The notes beneath the pieces are model-generated. The model did not search any database, was not told the DNA's origin, and was given only the letters and a program-made list of their open reading frames with translations. From positions 1 through 48,267 of the forward strand of contig JALSLC010000023.1 in NCBI GenBank assembly GCA_026988525.1: a stretch of 48,267 nt of DNA, read 5' to 3'. This stretch comes from Archaeoglobaceae archaeon (lineage in GTDB: Archaea; Halobacteriota; Archaeoglobi; Archaeoglobales; Archaeoglobaceae). Shown one piece after another: positions 1 through 8,763 of this stretch (position 1 is the first letter of the stretch; each line of letters opens with the position of its first letter). The translations under genes and the position numbers were made by a program.

Positions 1-582
1 AGAAACGATTACCAGTGGAGGGTTGTAGCCGGACACTGCACCGCCATGCACAGCTACGACAACGCATACGCCTTCAAGCTTATGAAGATATTGAAGAGGG
101 CGGGAATAACGATAGTTGCGAATCCGTTGATAAACATCCACTTACAGGGGAGATTCGACAGCTATCCGAAGAGGAGAGGGCTTACGAGGATAAAGGAGTT
201 GATGAGGGAAGGGATCAACGTATGCTTGGGGCACGACTGCATAATGGATCCCTGGTATCCCCTCGGCGTTGGAGACATGCTTCAGGCTTTGTTCATGGCC
301 GTTCACGTGGGGCACATGATGGGATACGGGGAATTAATAGAGTCCTTCGACTTAATAACCACCAACGCCGCGAAGGCTTTGAGGTTGAAGGATTACGGAG
401 TAGATGTGGGATGCAGAGCGGATTTTCTCGTTCTGAACGCTTACAACGAAATAGACGCCCTCAGGTTGCTCGGGCCACCACTTTATGTGATCAGAAATGG
501 AAAGATCGTTGCAAAAAACGTCGGAGGTGAAAGCTGGGTGAGGTTTAGGGGCAGATGGGGGAGAGTCGAATTCTTTGAGTAA
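1..582 (+). CDS. codA: Cytosine deaminase, 3' part (5' end outside window)
   Basis: The frame is open from the first base and ends at TAA 580-582, giving the last 193 residues of an amidohydrolase-superfamily cytosine deaminase. Recognisable family blocks are GHCTAMHSYDNAY near the start (metal-ligand His and substrate region), ANPLINIHLQGRFDSYPKRRG, and GHDCIMDPWYPLG, whose Asp is the metal ligand. The alignment I recall to E. coli CodA is close along the whole stretch. The residue just after the metal Asp is Cys, where E. coli CodA has Asp314. The role is cytosine (or a related base) to uracil plus ammonia in the cytosol, feeding upp and the uracil-catabolic operon downstream. Codon use is GC-rich like the rest of the 1-8763 island. 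The family call is firm; the exact base specificity is open. Confidence 0.9.
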   Translation, partial: RNDYQWRVVAGHCTAMHSYDNAYAFKLMKILKRAGITIVANPLINIHLQGRFDSYPKRRGLTRIKELMREGINVCLGHDCIMDPWYPLGVGDMLQALFMAVHVGHMMGYGELIESFDLITTNAAKALRLKDYGVDVGCRADFLVLNAYNEIDALRLLGPPLYVIRNGKIVAKNVGGESWVRFRGRWGRVEFFE

Positions 583-584
583 CG

Positions 585-603
585 TTTTTTAATCCTATTT
601 TTT
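585..603 (+). terminator. Oligo-T terminator after codA
   Basis: Two T-runs (585-590 and 598-603) directly follow the codA stop. This is the usual archaeal intrinsic termination signal. upp starts 40 bp downstream, so partial read-through into upp is possible. Confidence 0.4.
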
Positions 604-622
604 ACGGGTCAAGGGTGTCTTC

Positions 623-1291
623 ATGATAAGGGATGAAAGATGGAAGGGTGTTTACACTTTTGAGGATTCCCCGTATCTGATGGAAGTGCTGACGGAGTTG
701 AGAAACAAAAACACGGACAGCATCTCATTTCGTAAGGGACTCGTTAAGCTCGGAAGATACATGGGATACGAGCTTACGAAAACCATGGAGTTCGAAGAAG
801 TCGAAGTAGAAACCCCCTTAGAGAGAACTACTGGAACGATAGCCAAGGACAGAAAGAACGTGGTAATAATAACTGTTCTCAGAGCTAGCATTCCTATGAT
901 GGAGGGACTGATAAAGACTTTCGAGCACGCGAGGGTCGGAATAATATCCGCGTCGAGAGGTAAACCGCCCGAATTCAAGGTGGACATAGACTACATAAGG
1001 ATTCCCGACATAAAGCCGGAGGACACGGTCATAATAACGGATCCCATGATAGCCACAGGCTCCACTCTCTTAAGCGTTTTGAAAGAGCTCGAAAACCATC
1101 CTAAACCGAAGAGGATAATAGTTTTAGGAGTTTTGGCCGCACCGGAGGGAATAGACAGGATAAAGAAGGCTTATCCAGATGTGGAAATTTTCGTTACAAA
1201 AATAGATCGTGAGCTTAACTCTAAGGGATATATATTACCGGGGTTGGGGGATGCCGGAGATAGGGCTTTTGGCTCACCAAATCTAATTTAA
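623..1291 (+). CDS. upp: Uracil phosphoribosyltransferase
   Basis: 222-residue type I phosphoribosyltransferase converting uracil plus PRPP to UMP. The PRPP-binding loop is visible as [13 protein letters not shown] at about residues 139-151, and the uracil-binding C-terminal signature as [11 protein letters not shown] at about 208-218. Length matches the UPRT family. It lies 41 bp after codA, so the pair forms a cytosine-to-UMP salvage route and competes with the catabolic operon downstream for uracil. The ATG at 623 follows an AAGGGTG ribosome site. The start of the protein ([20 protein letters not shown]) resembles other archaeal UPRTs. Function is well supported. Confidence 0.93.
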
Positions 1292-1369
1292 TTATATTTT
1301 ACGATATGTTTAATTTTTTATCGATATCTTTATGAAATCTTTAGATATTATGAATTTTTATTAAAAAAA

Positions 1370-1376
1370 TTTAAAT
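1370..1376 (+). promoter_or_regulatory. TATA box for the NCS1 permease gene
   Basis: TTTAAAT preceded by an A-run resembling a BRE lies about 29 bp before the ATG at 1402. Archaeal transcription starts about 25 bp after the TATA centre, so the mRNA would be leaderless, consistent with no ribosome-binding site before 1402. Confidence 0.45.
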
Positions 1377-1401
1377 AAATCGCCTACTTTTGCATGAGCC
1401 T

Positions 1402-2820
1402 ATGACTTCGAATGTGTTGGTAGAACCGAAAAACTATAATGAAAATCCAGATTTGCTACCGGTTCCACCAAATCAGAGAAGATACAATGCCCTGACGTTT
1501 ACCTTCATGATGTTCAGCATGAACACGTGCATACCGATGTTCTTCTTGGGCCCCATCGCCAAATCGCTGGGCTTGAACATAGTCCAAGCGGTAATCGGAG
1601 CGTTAATCGGGAATTTAGCTGCGGTAACGGTAATGTATCTGAACGGAGTGGTAGGAGTAAAATACGGAATTCCCTACCCAGTCCAGCTGAGAGAGCCGTT
1701 CGGATTTAAGGGTGCGAAGGTTCCCGTAATTCTCAGAGGTCTTGCCGGGCTGATGTGGTTCGGAATAGAAGCTTACGCTGGATCTCTGGCTCTGGTCATG
1801 ATAGCACTCTACTTGGCGGGAGTCCCTCCCGACCAGCTTACGGACAAGGCCATAAGGCTTATTCCGATAGCACTCCTGTTCTACTTGGGTAGCTTCATCT
1901 TCGTGATGAGGAAGGGACTCGAGGGAATAGGAAAGATGGCCGATTACGCCGGCCCAATACTCCTGCTGTACTTCGTATGGCTGACCTACTTCCTGGCAAC
2001 TCAACCCCAGTTCGCGAGCAAGATGCCGGAGGTGTTCAAGGGGACTGCTGGATGGTTTAGCATGAGCTTTCTGACTTACTTGGCAGTGCAGACGAACTGG
2101 TGGGCGACAGTGGCTCTGAACATCTCGGATCTTACGAGGGGTTTGAAGAGCACAAAAGCCTTAATTATAGGACTGTTCGTCGGAATAGTTCTCTGCCAGA
2201 TAGTCGGAACCGCATTGGGCTTTTACTTGGCCGTGATGACTGGAAAGGTGTTACCTCAGACGATAATAGCGGAATACGCTCCGGGCATAGTGGCCGTTAT
2301 AATAGGGCTACTATTTGCATTCTTGGCACCTTGGTCGACGGACATAACCGCCAACGCTCCCCCGCTCATAGACATCCTTATGTCGGTCTTCAGAATGAGG
2401 TGGAAGCTTGCGGTAGTGGTTTCGGCGGTGATAGTATTCTTCGTCGCTCCGTGGTGGGCGGTTAAGAGCGGACCGGCCTACGTGAACTACATAACCAAGT
2501 GGGCGGCAAATTACGGAATACTCCTCGGCCCCATAGCCGGGCCAATGATCGCGAACTACTGGATAGTGAGGAAGAGAAAGTACGACCTCCAGAAGCTTTA
2601 CACCTATGGAGAGGGAGGGTGCTGGTATAGGAACGGATGGAGCTTGGCAGGATTCGCATCTCTGATAACTACGATAGCCCTGTCCTACGTAGTAGCAGCG
2701 TTAACGGGGCAGATGGCATACGTCAGCGGAGTTCCGTTCCCGGGAGGAGTGATATGGTATTTTGCTTTGGTAGTATCCTTTGTAACTTATATAGTGTTTG
2801 TAAAAATTTTCAATGAATAA
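1402..2820 (+). CDS. NCS1-family nucleobase permease (cytosine/uracil type)
   Basis: About 472 residues with roughly twelve hydrophobic membrane segments. It has the NCS1 (nucleobase:cation symporter-1) layout: the N-terminal NQRRYNALTFTFMMFSMNTC segment, GIPYPVQLREPFGFKGAKVP after TM2, and GPIAGPMIANYWIVRKRKYDL near TM10. The family imports cytosine, uracil, thiamine, hydantoins or allantoin; between codA/upp and the uracil-degradation operon, cytosine or uracil is the best guess. ATG 1402 was chosen over an upstream TTG (1390) because the TATA spacing predicts a leaderless transcript there. The interior is GC-rich, while the first ~100 and last ~60 bases are AT-rich. Confidence 0.85.
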   Translation: MTSNVLVEPKNYNENPDLLPVPPNQRRYNALTFTFMMFSMNTCIPMFFLGPIAKSLGLNIVQAVIGALIGNLAAVTVMYLNGVVGVKYGIPYPVQLREPFGFKGAKVPVILRGLAGLMWFGIEAYAGSLALVMIALYLAGVPPDQLTDKAIRLIPIALLFYLGSFIFVMRKGLEGIGKMADYAGPILLLYFVWLTYFLATQPQFASKMPEVFKGTAGWFSMSFLTYLAVQTNWWATVALNISDLTRGLKSTKALIIGLFVGIVLCQIVGTALGFYLAVMTGKVLPQTIIAEYAPGIVAVIIGLLFAFLAPWSTDITANAPPLIDILMSVFRMRWKLAVVVSAVIVFFVAPWWAVKSGPAYVNYITKWAANYGILLGPIAGPMIANYWIVRKRKYDLQKLYTYGEGGCWYRNGWSLAGFASLITTIALSYVVAALTGQMAYVSGVPFPGGVIWYFALVVSFVTYIVFVKIFNE

Positions 2821-2991
2821 TTTTTTTGTTTTCTACCTAATGTTTTATTATAATAATTCTTTAAATTAACAAAAATAATCGTTGATTTATTATTTTATTA
2901 ATTATATTGATTATTAAATTTTATGAATAAATCTTAAAAATATTTAAGTTAAAAATATCGTATCATTTATTCTATTACGGAGGTGGTTGAA

Positions 2992-3825
2992 ATGAGGAAG
3001 GTGAGGTGCGCTCTGATACAGACGAAAGGAGAGAAGGACAAGGAAGTAATGATCGAGAAGCACGAGGACTTCATAAGAAAAGCGGCAAAGAGGGGTGCAA
3101 AGATAATATGCCTTCAGGAGTTGTTCTACAGCATATACTTCCCGGCAGAGCAGGATTTGAAGTGGTTCGACCTCGCCGAACCCATCCCGGACGGGCCGAC
3201 GGTTAAGAGGATGCAGGAGCTCGCAAAGGAGCTCAACGTCGTTCTTATAGTTCCGATATTCGAGGTGGAAAAGCCGGGATTCTACTACAACACCGCAGCG
3301 GTAATAGATGCGGACGGAAGATATCTGGGCAAATACAGGAAGACGCACATACCCCACGTCAAGGGGTTCTGGGAGAAGTTCTACTTCAGACCGGGCAACT
3401 TGGGATATCCCGTTTTCGACACCGCATACGCTAAGATAGGGATATTCATATGCTACGACAGGCACTTCCCCGAACCCGCAAGAATACTGGCTTTGAAGGG
3501 AGCGGAAATTCTGTTCAACCCCTCCGCAACCACTGCCGGGCTGTCGGAATACCTGTGGAAGCTCGAACAGAGGGCTCATGCGGTAGCTAACGGAGTTTTT
3601 GTGGGAGCTATAAACAGGGTTGGCGTGGAAATAACCGGAGATCCGTTTTACGGAACTTCCTACTTCTGCGATCCATACGGCAACATAATCGCAGAAGGTA
3701 GCAGGGACAAGGAGGAGGTAATAGTTGCGGATCTCGACCTCGATCTGATATGGGAAGTTAGGAAGCTCTGGCAGTTCTTCAGAGACAGGAGACCCGAGAC
3801 TTACGAGGAGATAACGAAGCTGTGA
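2992..3825 (+). CDS. N-carbamoyl-beta-alanine amidohydrolase (beta-ureidopropionase), nitrilase superfamily
   Basis: 277-residue carbon-nitrogen hydrolase. The Glu-Lys-Cys triad is visible: Glu in CLQELFYS, Lys in KYRKTHIPH and Cys in FICYDRHFPE. A Glu also follows in the LWKLEQRAHAVANGVFV block. It hydrolyses N-carbamoyl-beta-alanine to beta-alanine, CO2 and ammonia, the third step of reductive pyrimidine breakdown. Other nitrilase-family amidases (N-carbamoyl-D-amino acid or putrescine hydrolases) look similar, but dihydropyrimidinase lies 9 bp downstream and PreA further on. The ATG at 2992 is preceded by GGAGGTGG with good spacing, so it is preferred to GTG 2983. First gene of the 2992-8763 operon, with a TATA-like ATTTAAGTT near 2942. 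Confidence 0.88.
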   Translation: MRKVRCALIQTKGEKDKEVMIEKHEDFIRKAAKRGAKIICLQELFYSIYFPAEQDLKWFDLAEPIPDGPTVKRMQELAKELNVVLIVPIFEVEKPGFYYNTAAVIDADGRYLGKYRKTHIPHVKGFWEKFYFRPGNLGYPVFDTAYAKIGIFICYDRHFPEPARILALKGAEILFNPSATTAGLSEYLWKLEQRAHAVANGVFVGAINRVGVEITGDPFYGTSYFCDPYGNIIAEGSRDKEEVIVADLDLDLIWEVRKLWQFFRDRRPETYEEITKL

Positions 3826-3834
3826 GGTGAGAGC

Positions 3835-5205
3835 ATGCTCGTGATAAAGAACGGAAAGATAGCTACGGCAAGTGAAATCTTCGAGGCGGACATAGGGATA
3901 GAGGACGGAAAGATAGTTGCGATAGCCAGAGATCTGAAAGGGGAGGAGGTGATAGATGCCGGCGGTAAGATAGTGATGCCGGGGATGATCGACGGGCACA
4001 CTCACATGGCAATGCCCTTCATGGGAACCTTTTCGAGCGACGACTTCGAAACTGGAACTAAAGCTGCAGCCTTCGGCGGAGTTACGACGATAATCAACTT
4101 CGCCATTCAGGAGAAGGGGAAGGGATTGAAGGATGCGATAGAGGTGGAGGATTCGAAGGCCAAGGGTAAGGCGTTCATCGACTACGCTTTCCACGTCGCT
4201 ATCACGGACATGAGAGAGGACGTTTTGGCCGAGATTCCCGAGGTTATGAAGAACGGTGTGACGAGCTTCAAGCTCTTCATGACTTACGAGGGGTTGATGG
4301 TAACCGACGACGTTCTTTTAGAGGTTCTGGATGTAGTTACGAAAAATGGTGGGCTGGTTGGAGTTCACGCGGAGAACTACTACATCATCAAGTTTTTGAC
4401 TAAGAGGTTGCTCGCGGAAGGAAAGACCGATCCGATATACCACGCATACAGCAGACCGAACTGCTGCGAGGAAGAGGCGGTAAACAGAGCTTGCATAATA
4501 ACTCAAATCGTAAACGGAAGGCTATACGTAGTCCATCTCTCAACGGCGGAGGGGCTTGAAAGGATAGAGGAGTTTCAGAAGAGAGGTGTGAGGGTTTACG
4601 CCGAAACCTGTCCCCAGTATCTGCTGCTCGACGAAGAGCTGTATAAGGAGCCGGACTTCGGAGGGGCGAAATACGTGATGTCTCCTCCGCTCAGAAGGGA
4701 GAAGGACAGAAGGGCTTTGTGGGACGGAATAAGGAGGGGAACGATACAGCTTATCGGATCGGATCACTGTCCCTTCTTCATGGAGCAAAAGGAGATGGGA
4801 AAGGACGATTTCACGAAAATTCCGAACGGCGCTCCGGGAGTTGAAACGACCCTCCCATTACTGTTCTCCGAAGGTGTGGTTAAGGGAAGGATCACGCTCA
4901 ACAGACTCGTAGAAGTGTTCTCAACGAACCCGGCAAAGCTCTACGGGATGTATCCGAAGAAGGGGACGATAGCGATTGGGAGTGATGCGGACATAGTAAT
5001 CCTCGATCCCAAGAAGGAGGTGACGCTCAGCGTCGATATGCTCCACCAGAACGTCGATTACACGCCTTACGAGGGATGGAAGGTGAAGGGGTATCCGGTC
5101 GTTACGATCGTAAGGGGAAAGGTTGTGTGTGAGGAAGGGGAGTTTTACGGGGAGAAGGGTTACGGAGAGTTCGTTCCGAGGAAGGAGGCAATAGATCTAT
5201 GGTAA
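3835..5205 (+). CDS. hydA: Dihydropyrimidinase (D-hydantoinase family)
   Basis: 456-residue cyclic amidohydrolase. The binuclear metal site is complete: GHTHM near residue 57, the lysine expected to be carbamylated in TSFKLFMTYEG near 146-150, VHAEN near 180, VHLSTAEG near 235 and GSDHCPF near 315. It opens 5,6-dihydrouracil (or dihydrothymine) to N-carbamoyl-beta-alanine, the substrate of the preceding gene. Length fits dihydropyrimidinases and hydantoinases; allantoinase or dihydroorotase are less likely because of the neighbours. The ATG follows GAGGTGAGAGC. It overlaps the next gene by 7 bp, indicating one operon. Confidence 0.92.
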   Translation: MLVIKNGKIATASEIFEADIGIEDGKIVAIARDLKGEEVIDAGGKIVMPGMIDGHTHMAMPFMGTFSSDDFETGTKAAAFGGVTTIINFAIQEKGKGLKDAIEVEDSKAKGKAFIDYAFHVAITDMREDVLAEIPEVMKNGVTSFKLFMTYEGLMVTDDVLLEVLDVVTKNGGLVGVHAENYYIIKFLTKRLLAEGKTDPIYHAYSRPNCCEEEAVNRACIITQIVNGRLYVVHLSTAEGLERIEEFQKRGVRVYAETCPQYLLLDEELYKEPDFGGAKYVMSPPLRREKDRRALWDGIRRGTIQLIGSDHCPFFMEQKEMGKDDFTKIPNGAPGVETTLPLLFSEGVVKGRITLNRLVEVFSTNPAKLYGMYPKKGTIAIGSDADIVILDPKKEVTLSVDMLHQNVDYTPYEGWKVKGYPVVTIVRGKVVCEEGEFYGEKGYGEFVPRKEAIDLW

Positions 5206-6296
5206 ACTTCTCAATCTACACTCCAACGCGAATACACTTCGGATACGACAGCTTTGAAAGAATAGAGTCCGCCAAGGAGTTCGGCGAGAAAGCTCTGATT
5301 GTGATAGGTAAGGGATCCGCTAAAAAATTCGGATACCTCGGAATGCTCGAAAAAAAGCTGGGCGAAATCGGCGTGGAATACGAGGTGCTGGAGGGAATTC
5401 CGGAAAATCCGGATGAGGAAATCGTAGAGATGGGAGCGGAATTTGCGGAGATGTCCAAGCCGGATTTCTTCATCGCGTTGGGTGGAGGTAGCGTTATAGA
5501 CGCCATGAAGGCTATAAATGCCGTTTACAGCAACGGTATCAGTGTTAAGGAGTGTTACGGAAAGCCGATATGCAGAGCTCTGCCCTCGATAGCAATTCCA
5601 ACTACATCCGGGACTGGGAGTGAAGTTACGAGGTATTCTATCGTTACCGACAAGAAAGCTGGAACGAAGAGGGTTATATCCGATTACAAGCTGTGTCCGA
5701 GCGTTGCCATAGTCGATCCCCAATTCACTTTAAAGCTTCCGAAATCCGTTACGATCTCATCCGGCTTAGACGCACTGAGCCATTGCATCGAGGCTCTCAT
5801 CGGATACTACTCGAATCCGGTAATAGATGCCATAGCCTTGGAAGGGATAAGGATAGGGTTTGAAAACCTTCCGAAAGTTGCGGAGAATCCCGACAGGGAA
5901 AGCAGAGAGAAGATGATGCTCTGCTCCCTCATGGGTGGTATTGCTATAAACTCCGTTCCAACCGGTTTGGCTCACGCTATGAGCTATCCTCTAACCGTAA
6001 ACTTCGGTATCCCTCACGGAATGGCAGTTGCAATCGTTCTCCCTCACGTTTTGCGATTGATGAATTACGAAGAGAAGTTGAGGAGGATGTCGGAGGTTTT
6101 GGGAGGGGATGCGATAAAGAAGCTTGAGGAGTTGTTCGAAATTTTGGGAGTTCCGGAGAAGGTCGAAGGGCTGAGTAAAGAGCAGTGCGAGGCTTTTGCG
6201 AGGGATGTAATGGCCAACAAGGAGAAGCTGAGGAACAACGTCAGAATTCCGACTTTTGAGGAGGTTAGGGAGATTTACATGACTTTGAGGGGGTGA
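5199..6296 (+). CDS. Iron-containing alcohol dehydrogenase, probable malonate-semialdehyde reductase
   Basis: 365-residue group III (Fe) alcohol dehydrogenase. It shows the NAD(P)-binding GGGSVIDAMKAI, IPTTSGTGSEVTRYS, GLDALSHCIEAL and LAHAMSYPLTVNFGIPHGMA blocks; the His residues of the last two are metal ligands, with an Asp in the SVAIVDPQFT segment. The family reduces short aldehydes reversibly. No known specificity is diagnostic here. Its place between dihydropyrimidinase and PreA, with a beta-alanine-type aminotransferase at the operon end, suggests malonate semialdehyde to 3-hydroxypropionate. It overlaps hydA by 7 bp and its stop lies in the ribosome site of preA. Family certain, substrate inferred. 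Confidence 0.87.
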   Translation: MVNFSIYTPTRIHFGYDSFERIESAKEFGEKALIVIGKGSAKKFGYLGMLEKKLGEIGVEYEVLEGIPENPDEEIVEMGAEFAEMSKPDFFIALGGGSVIDAMKAINAVYSNGISVKECYGKPICRALPSIAIPTTSGTGSEVTRYSIVTDKKAGTKRVISDYKLCPSVAIVDPQFTLKLPKSVTISSGLDALSHCIEALIGYYSNPVIDAIALEGIRIGFENLPKVAENPDRESREKMMLCSLMGGIAINSVPTGLAHAMSYPLTVNFGIPHGMAVAIVLPHVLRLMNYEEKLRRMSEVLGGDAIKKLEELFEILGVPEKVEGLSKEQCEAFARDVMANKEKLRNNVRIPTFEEVREIYMTLRG

Positions 6297-6300
6297 TTCT

Positions 6301-7473
6301 TTGAGAGTTAGCATGTGCGGTGTGGAATTTCCGAATCCCTTCCTACTCGCATCCGGCCCGCCGACGGCGAACGCGGAGCTTATCTCGAAGGGATTCGAAA
6401 GGGGATGGGGTGGAGCCGTCACGAAAACCATAGTGGGTAGGGGTGTTAAGATAGAGAACGTCTCTCCCCGTTTGGCGGTGCTGAAGTGCGGAAGTAAAGT
6501 GGTCGCCATGCAGAACATCGAACTCGTTACGACGAGGACTTTAGACGAATGGATAAAGGACATCAGGAGCCTAAAGAATACCTGGCCGGACAGGGTTCTG
6601 ATAGGAAGCGTGATGGCAACTTACGACGAAAAGGAGTGGCAGAGCGTGGTGGATGAGGTTCAATCCGCCGGGGTGGACATGCTCGAACTGAACCTCTCGT
6701 GCCCCCACGGAATGCCTGAAAGAGGGGCGGGAGCGGCGATAGGACAGAATCCGGAGATGGTTAGGGATGTGGTTTCTTGGGTCAAGGATGTGGCATACGT
6801 TCCGGTTCTCGCCAAGCTGACTCCGAACGTTACCGACATCTCAGCAATAGCGAGAGCGGCGGAGGAAGGAGGAGCAGACGGAATTTCGGCGATAAATACC
6901 GTTTTGGGATTCGTGGGCATCGATTTGGACGGCATGAATCCGATTCTGAACGTGTCGGGAAAAACATCTTTCGGAGGTATCTCCGGAATGGCGATAAAGC
7001 CCATAGGCTTAAGATGCGTTGCGGAGGTAGCCAAAGCCACGAACTTACCGATTTCCGGCATAGGCGGGATTTCAAGCTGGAGGGATGCTTTGGAATACAT
7101 GCTTTTGGGAGCTAACACCGTTCAGGTTTGCACCGCAGTAATGCTCAGAGGATTCGGAATAATAGAAGATATGATCTATGGGCTGAGGAAATTCATGGAG
7201 GAAAAGGGATACGGAGAAGTTTCGGAGTTCGTCGGACTGGCTCTCAAGAGCATCGTTAGCTTCGAGGAGCTACCCAAGGAGAAGAAGATTGCAAAGATCG
7301 ATGCAGAGAACTGCTCGAAATGTTACTCATGCGTTAAGTCATGCTCCGACGGTGGATTCAACGCGATAACGGTTACTAACGGCTATCCCGAAGTCGATGC
7401 AACCAGATGCGACGGTTGCGGGCTCTGCGTTTGCGTATGTCCCAACGGGTGTATTAGGCTGGAGGTGGTTTGA
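6301..7473 (+). CDS. preA: Dihydropyrimidine dehydrogenase, PreA-type flavin/iron-sulfur subunit
   Basis: 390 residues: an FMN-binding dihydroorotate-dehydrogenase-like barrel (about 1-310) followed by two [4Fe-4S] ferredoxin motifs (CSKCYSCVKSC and CDGCGLCVCVCP, about 343-385). The catalytic loop LNLSCPHGMPERG carries the Cys and His characteristic of dihydropyrimidine dehydrogenase, separating it from PyrD. It reduces uracil or thymine to the dihydro base (or the reverse), the first catabolic step. The NAD(P)H/FAD partner PreT is absent next to it, so the electron donor may be ferredoxin or another carrier. The TTG start at 6301 is spaced from GGGGGTGAT; ATG 6313 is the alternative. Confidence 0.9.
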   Translation: MRVSMCGVEFPNPFLLASGPPTANAELISKGFERGWGGAVTKTIVGRGVKIENVSPRLAVLKCGSKVVAMQNIELVTTRTLDEWIKDIRSLKNTWPDRVLIGSVMATYDEKEWQSVVDEVQSAGVDMLELNLSCPHGMPERGAGAAIGQNPEMVRDVVSWVKDVAYVPVLAKLTPNVTDISAIARAAEEGGADGISAINTVLGFVGIDLDGMNPILNVSGKTSFGGISGMAIKPIGLRCVAEVAKATNLPISGIGGISSWRDALEYMLLGANTVQVCTAVMLRGFGIIEDMIYGLRKFMEEKGYGEVSEFVGLALKSIVSFEELPKEKKIAKIDAENCSKCYSCVKSCSDGGFNAITVTNGYPEVDATRCDGCGLCVCVCPNGCIRLEVV

Positions 7474-8763
7474 ATGCCCGTTTATCACACTTGGAGCAAG
7501 CAGAACGTTAAGAGTTTGAAGGTAGTTAAGGCGGAAGGCTGTTACTTCTACGATGAAAACGGCAAGAGATACTTCGACATGTCTTCCCAGCTGATGTGCT
7601 CGAACTTGGGTCACGGAAACAGAGCTGTAATAGAGGCGATAAAGAAGCAGGCGGAAAAGCTCGCATACATCGCTCCGGGTTTCGACTGCGAAATTAAGGA
7701 GAGGGCCGTGAAGGCCTTGCAAGAGGTAATGCCGCTAAACTGCTTCTTCTTCTCCACATCAGGAACGGAAGCGAACGAGGCAGCTATAAAGATTGCGAGA
7801 ATGTTCAAATTCCCTAAATACAAGATAATATCGCGTTACCACTCCTACCACGGATCTACTGCAGTATCCATAAGCCTTACGGGAGATCCGAGGAGGTATT
7901 TCGCCGAGAAGGTGAGGTGCACGATAGAGGGTGTAATCTTCGCTCCCGATCCATACTGCTACCGCTGTCCTTTTGGCAGAGAATATCCGGGATGCGATTT
8001 CGAGTGTGCGAGGTATTTGGAATACGTGTTGAAGAACGAGTGGCACGTTGCTGGATTCGTATTCGAGCCGGTGGTTGGAACGAACGGAGTCATAGTTCCC
8101 CCGAAGGAATACTACGAAATAATCGGAGAGATAGCCGAGAAATACGAAATCCTACTCATTGCAGATGAGGTCATGTCGGGCTGGGGAAGGACGGGAGAAT
8201 GGTTCGCCGTGAACCACTACAAGTTAAAGCCGGACATAATAACAACCGCAAAGGGGGCGACGGGAGCTTACATGCCACTGGGAATCACAGCTACAACCGA
8301 AGAGATATACGGGTTCTTCGAAGAGAACTTCTTCGCTCACGGGCACACATATTCTGACCATCCTATGTGCCTGGCTCCAGTTCCGGCGGTTGTAGAGGAG
8401 TTCAAGAGGCTGAATCTGCTCGATCACGTTAAGAGGATGGAGAAGTTCATGTCGAAGAGGTTGAACGAGATGAAGGAAGAGCACGTTTCGATAGGAGATG
8501 TAAGGGGAATAGGAATGTTCTGGACGATAGAGTTCGTCAGGAATAGGGAAACCAAGGAGCCTTTCGTAACGAGAAAGGACTTCATGGAGGGAAGACCGTC
8601 CATAATCAAGGAGATTTCGAAGGCTGCGATGGAGAGGGGGGTTTACGTTACCGGACCGGGATGGGGTAATCATCTGATGCTCGCCCCCCCGCTGATAGCG
8701 AAAAAGGAGGAGCTTGAGGAGGCTTTCGACGTCCTCGATGGAACTATATCTGCCTTAGATTAG
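7474..8763 (+). CDS. Class III PLP aminotransferase, probable beta-alanine transaminase
   Basis: 429-residue class III (omega) aminotransferase. The PLP lysine is in ITTAKGATGAYMPLG near residue 262, with SGTEANEAAIKIAR near 95 and the LIADEVMSGWGRTGEW block near 229. The Cys-rich segment PYCYRCPFGREYPGC is common in this branch. The family moves amino groups from beta-alanine, GABA or similar omega-amines to pyruvate or 2-oxoglutarate. As last gene of the pyrimidine operon it most likely turns beta-alanine into malonate semialdehyde for the Fe-dehydrogenase. The ATG directly follows the preA stop (TGAATG) with GGAGGTGG upstream. The GC-rich codon style ends exactly here. Confidence 0.85.
   Translation: MPVYHTWSKQNVKSLKVVKAEGCYFYDENGKRYFDMSSQLMCSNLGHGNRAVIEAIKKQAEKLAYIAPGFDCEIKERAVKALQEVMPLNCFFFSTSGTEANEAAIKIARMFKFPKYKIISRYHSYHGSTAVSISLTGDPRRYFAEKVRCTIEGVIFAPDPYCYRCPFGREYPGCDFECARYLEYVLKNEWHVAGFVFEPVVGTNGVIVPPKEYYEIIGEIAEKYEILLIADEVMSGWGRTGEWFAVNHYKLKPDIITTAKGATGAYMPLGITATTEEIYGFFEENFFAHGHTYSDHPMCLAPVPAVVEEFKRLNLLDHVKRMEKFMSKRLNEMKEEHVSIGDVRGIGMFWTIEFVRNRETKEPFVTRKDFMEGRPSIIKEISKAAMERGVYVTGPGWGNHLMLAPPLIAKKEELEEAFDVLDGTISALD

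Follow-up and report, generated by a model that had tools for sequence, protein, structure and literature searches.

Results

A CodA-type gene split between two contigs carries Cys at the Asp314 position

The window, by which we mean the whole 48,267-nucleotide stretch of Archaeoglobaceae DNA analysed here, corresponds to contig C23 of a genome of 1.43 Mb that is 99.8% complete, and its first base falls within a codA-type gene. Frame 1 is open over positions 1-579 of the forward strand, reads in part GINVCLGHDCIMDPWYPLGVG, and with its stop codon (1-582; 193 aa plus stop) forms the 3' part of a CodA-type cytosine deaminase gene, the 5' part of which lies at the end of contig C3 (71593-72282). 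Bases 223-261 on the same strand translate to CLGHDCIMDPWYP (motif GHDCIMDPWYP), with the Cys encoded by tgc at 238-240. In pairwise alignment the corresponding place in E. coli CodA reads FGHDDVFDPWYP, and the Cys stands opposite Asp314 in the mature numbering (residue 315 of the open reading frame). Translation and alignment thus bear out the first-pass annotation in its reading of a CodA-like motif with Cys in place of Asp. The likeness to CodA is not due to chance, since the 193-residue part alone matches the E. coli protein at a phmmer E-value of 1.4e-61.

The two contigs overlap by 274 bases with six differences, of which none touches the Cys codon and a single one alters an amino acid (Ser/Asn), and both copies remain open throughout the overlap. 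The join, which yields a CodA protein of 423 aa, most likely reflects strain variation where the assembly breaks. A sequencing error is an unlikely source of the Cys, because the C3 overlap preserves its codon and all 12 named archaeal orthologues have Cys at this place.

The surrounding genes fit uptake and use of pyrimidine bases

The gene order is NCS1-codA-upp-NCS1-hydrolase-dihydropyrimidinase-ADH-PreA-aminotransferase, the first NCS1 permease gene lying upstream of codA on C3 in divergent orientation and the genes within the window all on the forward strand. Curated cut-offs are passed by the uracil phosphoribosyltransferase gene upp (623-1291; TIGR01091, 248.9 bits against a cut-off of 208), the dihydropyrimidinase gene (3835-5205; TIGR02033, 599 against 393) and the gene for a PreA-type dihydropyrimidine dehydrogenase subunit comprising the FMN and ferredoxin part (6301-7473; NF006183, 481 against 335). 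The permeases, hydrolase, alcohol dehydrogenase and aminotransferase stay below such cut-offs, and gene order suggests their roles. The second NCS1 family nucleobase transporter (1390-2820; TIGR00800, 146.9 bits against 353) is placed by similarity. The carbon-nitrogen hydrolase (2983-3825), probably a beta-ureidopropionase, scores below cut-off in all 11 families matched, the best NCBIfam match being the N-carbamoylputrescine amidase family TIGR03381 (286 against 410 bits). The iron-containing alcohol dehydrogenase (Fe-ADH; 5199-6296), perhaps a malonate-semialdehyde reductase, matches below all cut-offs listed, as do all 25 family matches listed for the class III aminotransferase (7474-8763), probably a beta-alanine aminotransferase. 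An Lrp-type regulator follows the aminotransferase after a stretch of low GC content. Dihydropyrimidine dehydrogenase and dihydropyrimidinase occur together, with the Fe-ADH gene alone between them, as in a reductive pyrimidine cluster, and the neighbourhood as a whole fits the uptake and use of pyrimidine bases. None of the ten proteins scanned around the 390-residue PreA is an NAD(P)H-oxidising subunit, and by analogy with clostridial PydAc the PreA is possibly ferredoxin-dependent.

An NCS1 permease 60-71% identical to the upstream one adjoins codA at six of the 12 named archaeal loci; the other six lack such a close neighbour, one having a distant (23%) NCS1 and some lying on contigs that end nearby. 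A close NCS1 also stands beside codA in three of 23 further Thermoproteota regions, a set in which at least two regions already appear under the named loci and some contigs are short. One further Thermoproteota locus (L218) has a Cys-type codA near homologues of the dihydropyrimidinase (35%), the hydrolase (43%) and the aminotransferase (53%). At one archaeal and one pseudomonadotal Cys-type locus that we examined, genes for a BMP-type ABC importer adjoin codA, the archaeal ones scoring below curated cut-offs. Gene sizes near archaeal codA had suggested hydantoinase neighbours and hence a creatinine or hydantoin route, a candidate that we rejected when these genes proved, at the one locus examined, to be those of the importer. 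According to PMC11633122, Pseudomonas aeruginosa has its cytosine-associated transporter genes, PA0438 and PA0443, close together and in the vicinity of predicted pyrimidine-catabolism genes.

The cluster forms a GC-rich island of probable foreign origin

Taken across both contigs (window 1-8763 plus C3 69985-72282, that is L004 11985-14282), the pyrimidine-catabolism island spans 11,061 bases at 48.3% GC, against means of 34.8% and 36.0% on its two sides, and dips to about 36-40% in places. Its genes make up a nearly complete set for taking up and degrading pyrimidines. GC content alone does not prove an island, because values of 47-50% recur near 14.4-15 kb in two ORFs that look rubrerythrin-like on inspection. 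On its left, the island is bordered by a tRNA-Pro(ggg) gene (C3 69965-70039; L004 11965-12039), which the permease ORF overlaps. No direct repeat of the 3' end of this tRNA gene was found at the right edge, and elsewhere in the window its matches are short and scattered. A search of 35 further genomes of the family, some of them incomplete, found no full-length codA. A genome of another genus in the same family (G012) contains a 3.03-kb stretch (L270 9667-12691) that is 96.6% identical in DNA to window positions 5707-8738, and holds a shortened Fe-ADH gene beside a pair of ORFs that look IS607-like on inspection, together with a broken aminotransferase gene. The GC contrast, the tRNA-Pro edge, the failure to find codA in 35 relatives and the decayed piece in G012 together indicate a recent horizontal gain of the island, followed by decay in one recipient.

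A search for a donor in Thermoproteota identified none: relatives of PreA pass an E-value of 1e-80 in 14 of 398 genomes and reach only 42-50% identity. As to the recipient, the window also holds aprA, the best solved relatives of which are the adenylylsulfate reductases 2fja and 1jnr (the latter from Archaeoglobus fulgidus), and an ORF that resembles sat on inspection; these two genes make it probable that the organism reduces sulfate.

The deaminase keeps the CodA catalytic residues, and the model of an orthologue has the CodA-like fold

The joined protein shares 45.1% identity with E. coli CodA across 421 aligned residues and passes both NCBI cytosine-deaminase cut-offs (NF006685, 505.9 against 483 bits; NF005748, 494.6 against 438 bits). 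At 16 of 21 positions in the active-site region it is identical to the E. coli enzyme, including H61, H63, H214, E217, H246, D313, Q156 and W319, which in the CodA literature are the metal and catalytic residues; on the alignment, these are all kept. The five positions that differ are 82, 123, 186, 314 and 316. Residue 182 of the joined protein, in the C3 part, is Asn where E. coli CodA has Phe186. This Asn is found in 22 of 34 rows of the archaeal clade of the tree described below and in five of 79 Ser-type proteins, and may matter for the pocket as much as the Cys does.

The fold was examined on a 69%-identical Geocrenenecus orthologue in place of the split gene itself. The model (mean pLDDT 87.9) ranks E. 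coli CodA entries first by E-value, with 1k6w at the top, and the Klebsiella 5-methylcytosine deaminase next, with TM-scores of 0.90 and 0.89, respectively. Although E. coli CodA ranks first, the model superposes on the Klebsiella enzyme with the lower rmsd (2.2-2.5, against 5.6-5.7 for CodA), so that the modelled fold does not separate cytosine from 5-methylcytosine deaminases here. Just after the Cys, at residues 311-314, the pLDDT drops below 50 and the loop geometry is of low confidence. In sequence, the window part scores 210.9 bits against E. coli CodA and 168.9 against the Klebsiella enzyme. With Cys at the 314 position and a place outside the E. coli clade of the tree, the joined protein falls outside the E. 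coli-type subgroup, which is marked by an Asp314 that excludes 5-methylcytosine; the non-Asp residue that goes with 5-methylcytosine deaminases is present as Cys, but is common to most main-type proteins sampled.

Cys is an ordinary state of residue 314

A pattern-based search returned 167 relatives, and the best 80 had Ser in 65 cases, Cys in 14 and Asp in one, a tally biased by the inclusion of the Cys motif itself among the patterns. A DNA search of E. coli genomes gave two short, insignificant matches, one inside a codA gene. We place more weight on genome samples that were drawn evenly, in which the loci read were the best-scoring ones and of which those for Thermoproteota and Pseudomonadota each include their centre genome.

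In Thermoproteota, 34 of 398 genomes have a CodA match at an E-value of 1e-40, and 30 loci were returned. Every main-type (DPWY/F) protein that shows the motif has Cys (26/26), one fragment (L166) ending short of it, and the four second-type proteins among the 30 loci all have Asp. Thirty-two further matches, at no more than 44% identity, came without a locus; three of them are visible in flanks, with Asp, Asp and Asn at the site. Pseudomonadota gave a CodA match in 41 of 200 genomes, and 33 of these were read (30 loci and three fetched sequences; the remaining eight, at 29-42% identity, were left out), showing 17 Cys, 11 Ser and five Asp among 33 main-type proteins. In the window's own phylum, six of 294 genomes have a match, namely the present genome and five with Ser in the main copy, further copies having Cys (three) or Asp (one). 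At four archaeal loci (L140, L130, L132 and L134), a second CodA-like gene, 37-38% identical, lies next to the main one on the opposite strand; its motif is DADAYY-like in L140 (DDVADAYY) and DGFY in the other three.

A tree of 93 proteins, 56 with Cys, 25 with Ser and 12 with Asp, requires at least six changes at this residue, counted with the residue column kept in the alignment. It leaves out most close relatives from Marinomonas, Halomonas and Ktedonobacter as well as the Thermoproteota copies of five genomes already under named loci, and it is rooted at the midpoint, so that we make no claim as to the oldest state. Cys is present in every one of the 34 rows of the window protein's clade, and a second, bacterial Cys clade comprises 19 rows. 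The E. coli Asp clade has six rows and groups with Ser-bearing proteins; the remaining Asp rows are two outliers (L073 and L136) and the four second-type archaeal proteins. Within these samples, Cys is a usual residue at 314 in this family and only a minority of proteins have Asp314, which among main-type proteins is limited to a small E. coli-like clade and the two outliers. The view, implicit in the first-pass annotation, that a natural Cys is unusual is not supported by the counts from Thermoproteota and Pseudomonadota. Of the two observations that the annotation named as counting against it, equal or better kinetics on plain cytosine and wide occurrence of Cys in ordinary cytosine deaminases, the samples supply the wide occurrence (26/26 and 17/33), in enzymes that are called ordinary by their sequence.

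Discussion

Cytosine is the likeliest substrate, with 5-methylcytosine plausibly tolerated

In the CodA mechanism known from published work, a metal activates water, Glu and His shuttle protons and Gln holds the carbonyl of the base. Very probably, the gene described here encodes a cytosine deaminase of the CodA family (amidohydrolase superfamily), the uracil from which goes to Upp or to reductive breakdown, with Cys314 as the normal state of its archaeal clade. Such an enzyme would bind its metal through the aligned His and Asp residues and so activate water, move protons with the aligned Glu and His, and grip the base carbonyl with the Gln, converting cytosine, which the NCS1 permeases would bring in, to uracil. 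Upp would make UMP from this uracil; alternatively, the PreA-type enzyme would reduce it to dihydrouracil, which dihydropyrimidinase would open to N-carbamoyl-beta-alanine. On the evidence of gene order, the hydrolase would then release beta-alanine, the aminotransferase would convert it to malonate semialdehyde, and the Fe-ADH would probably reduce that to 3-hydroxypropionate. We consider cytosine the likeliest substrate because the gene adjoins two NCS1 permease genes, upp and the predicted enzymes of reductive uracil breakdown.

That residue 314 matters for substrate preference, as had been pointed out from the motif, is correct. To judge by PDB titles, structures exist for the E. coli variants D314A, D314G and D314S and for the Klebsiella 5-methylcytosine deaminase with 5-fluorocytosine and phosphonocytosine. 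In PMC6186785, CodA is described, with reference to Hitchcock 2014, as essentially unable to use 5-methylcytosine and as gaining that activity when the Asp is replaced by Ala, and Ser is reported in place of the Asp (numbered Asp315 there) in the Klebsiella enzyme; PMC4283509 states that codA works better as a negative marker with the D314A change. That 5-substituted cytosines are admitted when this residue is not Asp has thus already been published, and by analogy Cys adds one more small side chain to the group. Like the Ser and Ala enzymes, the Cys form should have space at ring C5, and 5-methylcytosine, a plausible tolerated substrate on the same analogy, may be turned over more slowly than cytosine or equally well. 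The further step, that the Cys signals a different base entering the pathway, fails on the wide distribution of Cys and on a gene neighbourhood that points to plain cytosine and uracil; probably, the Cys does no more than widen the enzyme's tolerance of modified cytosines. Among the modified bases proposed, 5-methylcytosine stands as a reasonable side substrate, and we found nothing in favour of isocytosine, isoguanine or an oxidised base in particular. Searches of open-licence literature, in terms other than Cys itself, returned text with no assay of a Cys-type enzyme. No enzyme of the archaeal CodA clade is known to us to have been assayed.

The genome encodes three RsmB-F-type m5C RNA methyltransferase homologues above the Pfam cut-off. 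A search for C5 DNA methyltransferases (PF00145) found none in this 99.8%-complete genome, the control search having detected the family in ten of 14 known genomes. The organism's own methylated DNA is consequently no obvious source of 5-methylcytosine, and methylated RNA is.

Other readings of the locus

A bolder form of the argument holds that a mobile island in archaea of hot environments salvages modified as well as plain pyrimidines: 5-methylcytosine from methylated thermophile RNA would become thymine and be burned reductively, and the Cys would be a clade-wide, thermostable, 5-methyl-tolerant state beside Ser. We regard this combination as unlikely.

Very unlikely is an enzyme that is chiefly a 5-methylcytosine deaminase, making thymine that the reductive enzymes would degrade to beta-aminoisobutyrate and on. 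Enzymes of the reductive pyrimidine pathway generally accept thymine too, which counts in favour of this reading; the Upp family, however, is uracil-specific, and upp adjoins codA. The lower rmsd of the orthologue model to the Klebsiella enzyme is on its side, and so are the three RNA methyltransferase homologues, given that RNA turnover can yield methylated cytosine, together with the Ser of the Klebsiella enzyme and the activity gained on replacing the E. coli Asp (PMC6186785). Against it stand the negative search for PF00145 with its positive control, the higher score of the window part to E. coli CodA, and a Cys too widespread to mark a special substrate.

That the enzyme deaminates a different ring (isocytosine, isoguanine, creatinine or an s-triazine, for example) is highly improbable. 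According to PMC12828455, AtzC and TrzC belong to the CodA cluster, and both clusters contain enzymes that accept isocytosine; yet sequence and fold clearly prefer CodA over AtzC, the neighbours of codA belong to uracil metabolism, and the suspected hydantoinase neighbours of a creatinine route were ABC importer genes at the one archaeal locus tested. Finally, that codA is a non-functional relic, split or decaying, is scarcely credible: the break across contigs with its six differences and the decayed fragment in G012 might suggest it, but the frame stays open across the overlap on either contig, a single difference changes an amino acid, and the metal and catalytic residues are kept.

Implications

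The residue shows that E. coli CodA, with an Asp314 that is a minority state in the samples read, represents its family poorly. Should 5-methylcytosine or 5-fluorocytosine prove to be substrates of Cys-type enzymes, the scope of many genes at present annotated simply as cytosine deaminase would be wider, and the versions from archaea of hot environments would be stable candidates for 5-fluorocytosine work. A wider tolerance of 5-substituted cytosines, plausible here, is an already known theme. The island, for its part, suggests that the archaeal genes for breaking down uracil can move together as one block.

Comparison with known systems

The closest well-studied counterpart, E. coli CodA (PDB 1k6w; mutants 1r9y D314A, 1r9x D314G and 1r9z D314S), is alike in fold (on the orthologue model), in metal and catalytic residues and in its permease neighbour, and differs in having Asp314 for Cys and Phe186 for Asn, in an overall identity of 45% and in the uracil-breakdown cluster that surrounds the archaeal gene. 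Klebsiella pneumoniae Kpn00632 (PDB 4r7w, 4r85 and 4r88) likewise has a small non-acidic residue at 314 and shares the fold (TM 0.89, orthologue model), but that residue is Ser, as PMC6186785 reports, where the archaeal protein has Cys, and the window part matches E. coli CodA with a higher score. Nearer relatives are the CodA orthologues of archaea from hot environments (for example Geocrenenecus, L035, and Desulfurococcales, L036, L037 and L039), which across the 12 named loci are 58-69% identical, invariably have Cys and have a close NCS1 gene beside them in half of the cases; the present locus differs in its breakdown genes, as the sole uracil-breakdown homologue detected in their flanks, several of which are short, is a distant Fe-ADH (30%, L041). 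For the reductive step, the ferredoxin-dependent PydAc of Clostridium, as described in PMC7332683, is also without an NAD(P)H part; the C. chromiireducens protein combines two ferredoxin domains, whereas the window PreA has one C-terminal ferredoxin part, as in the split form of C. pasteurianum.
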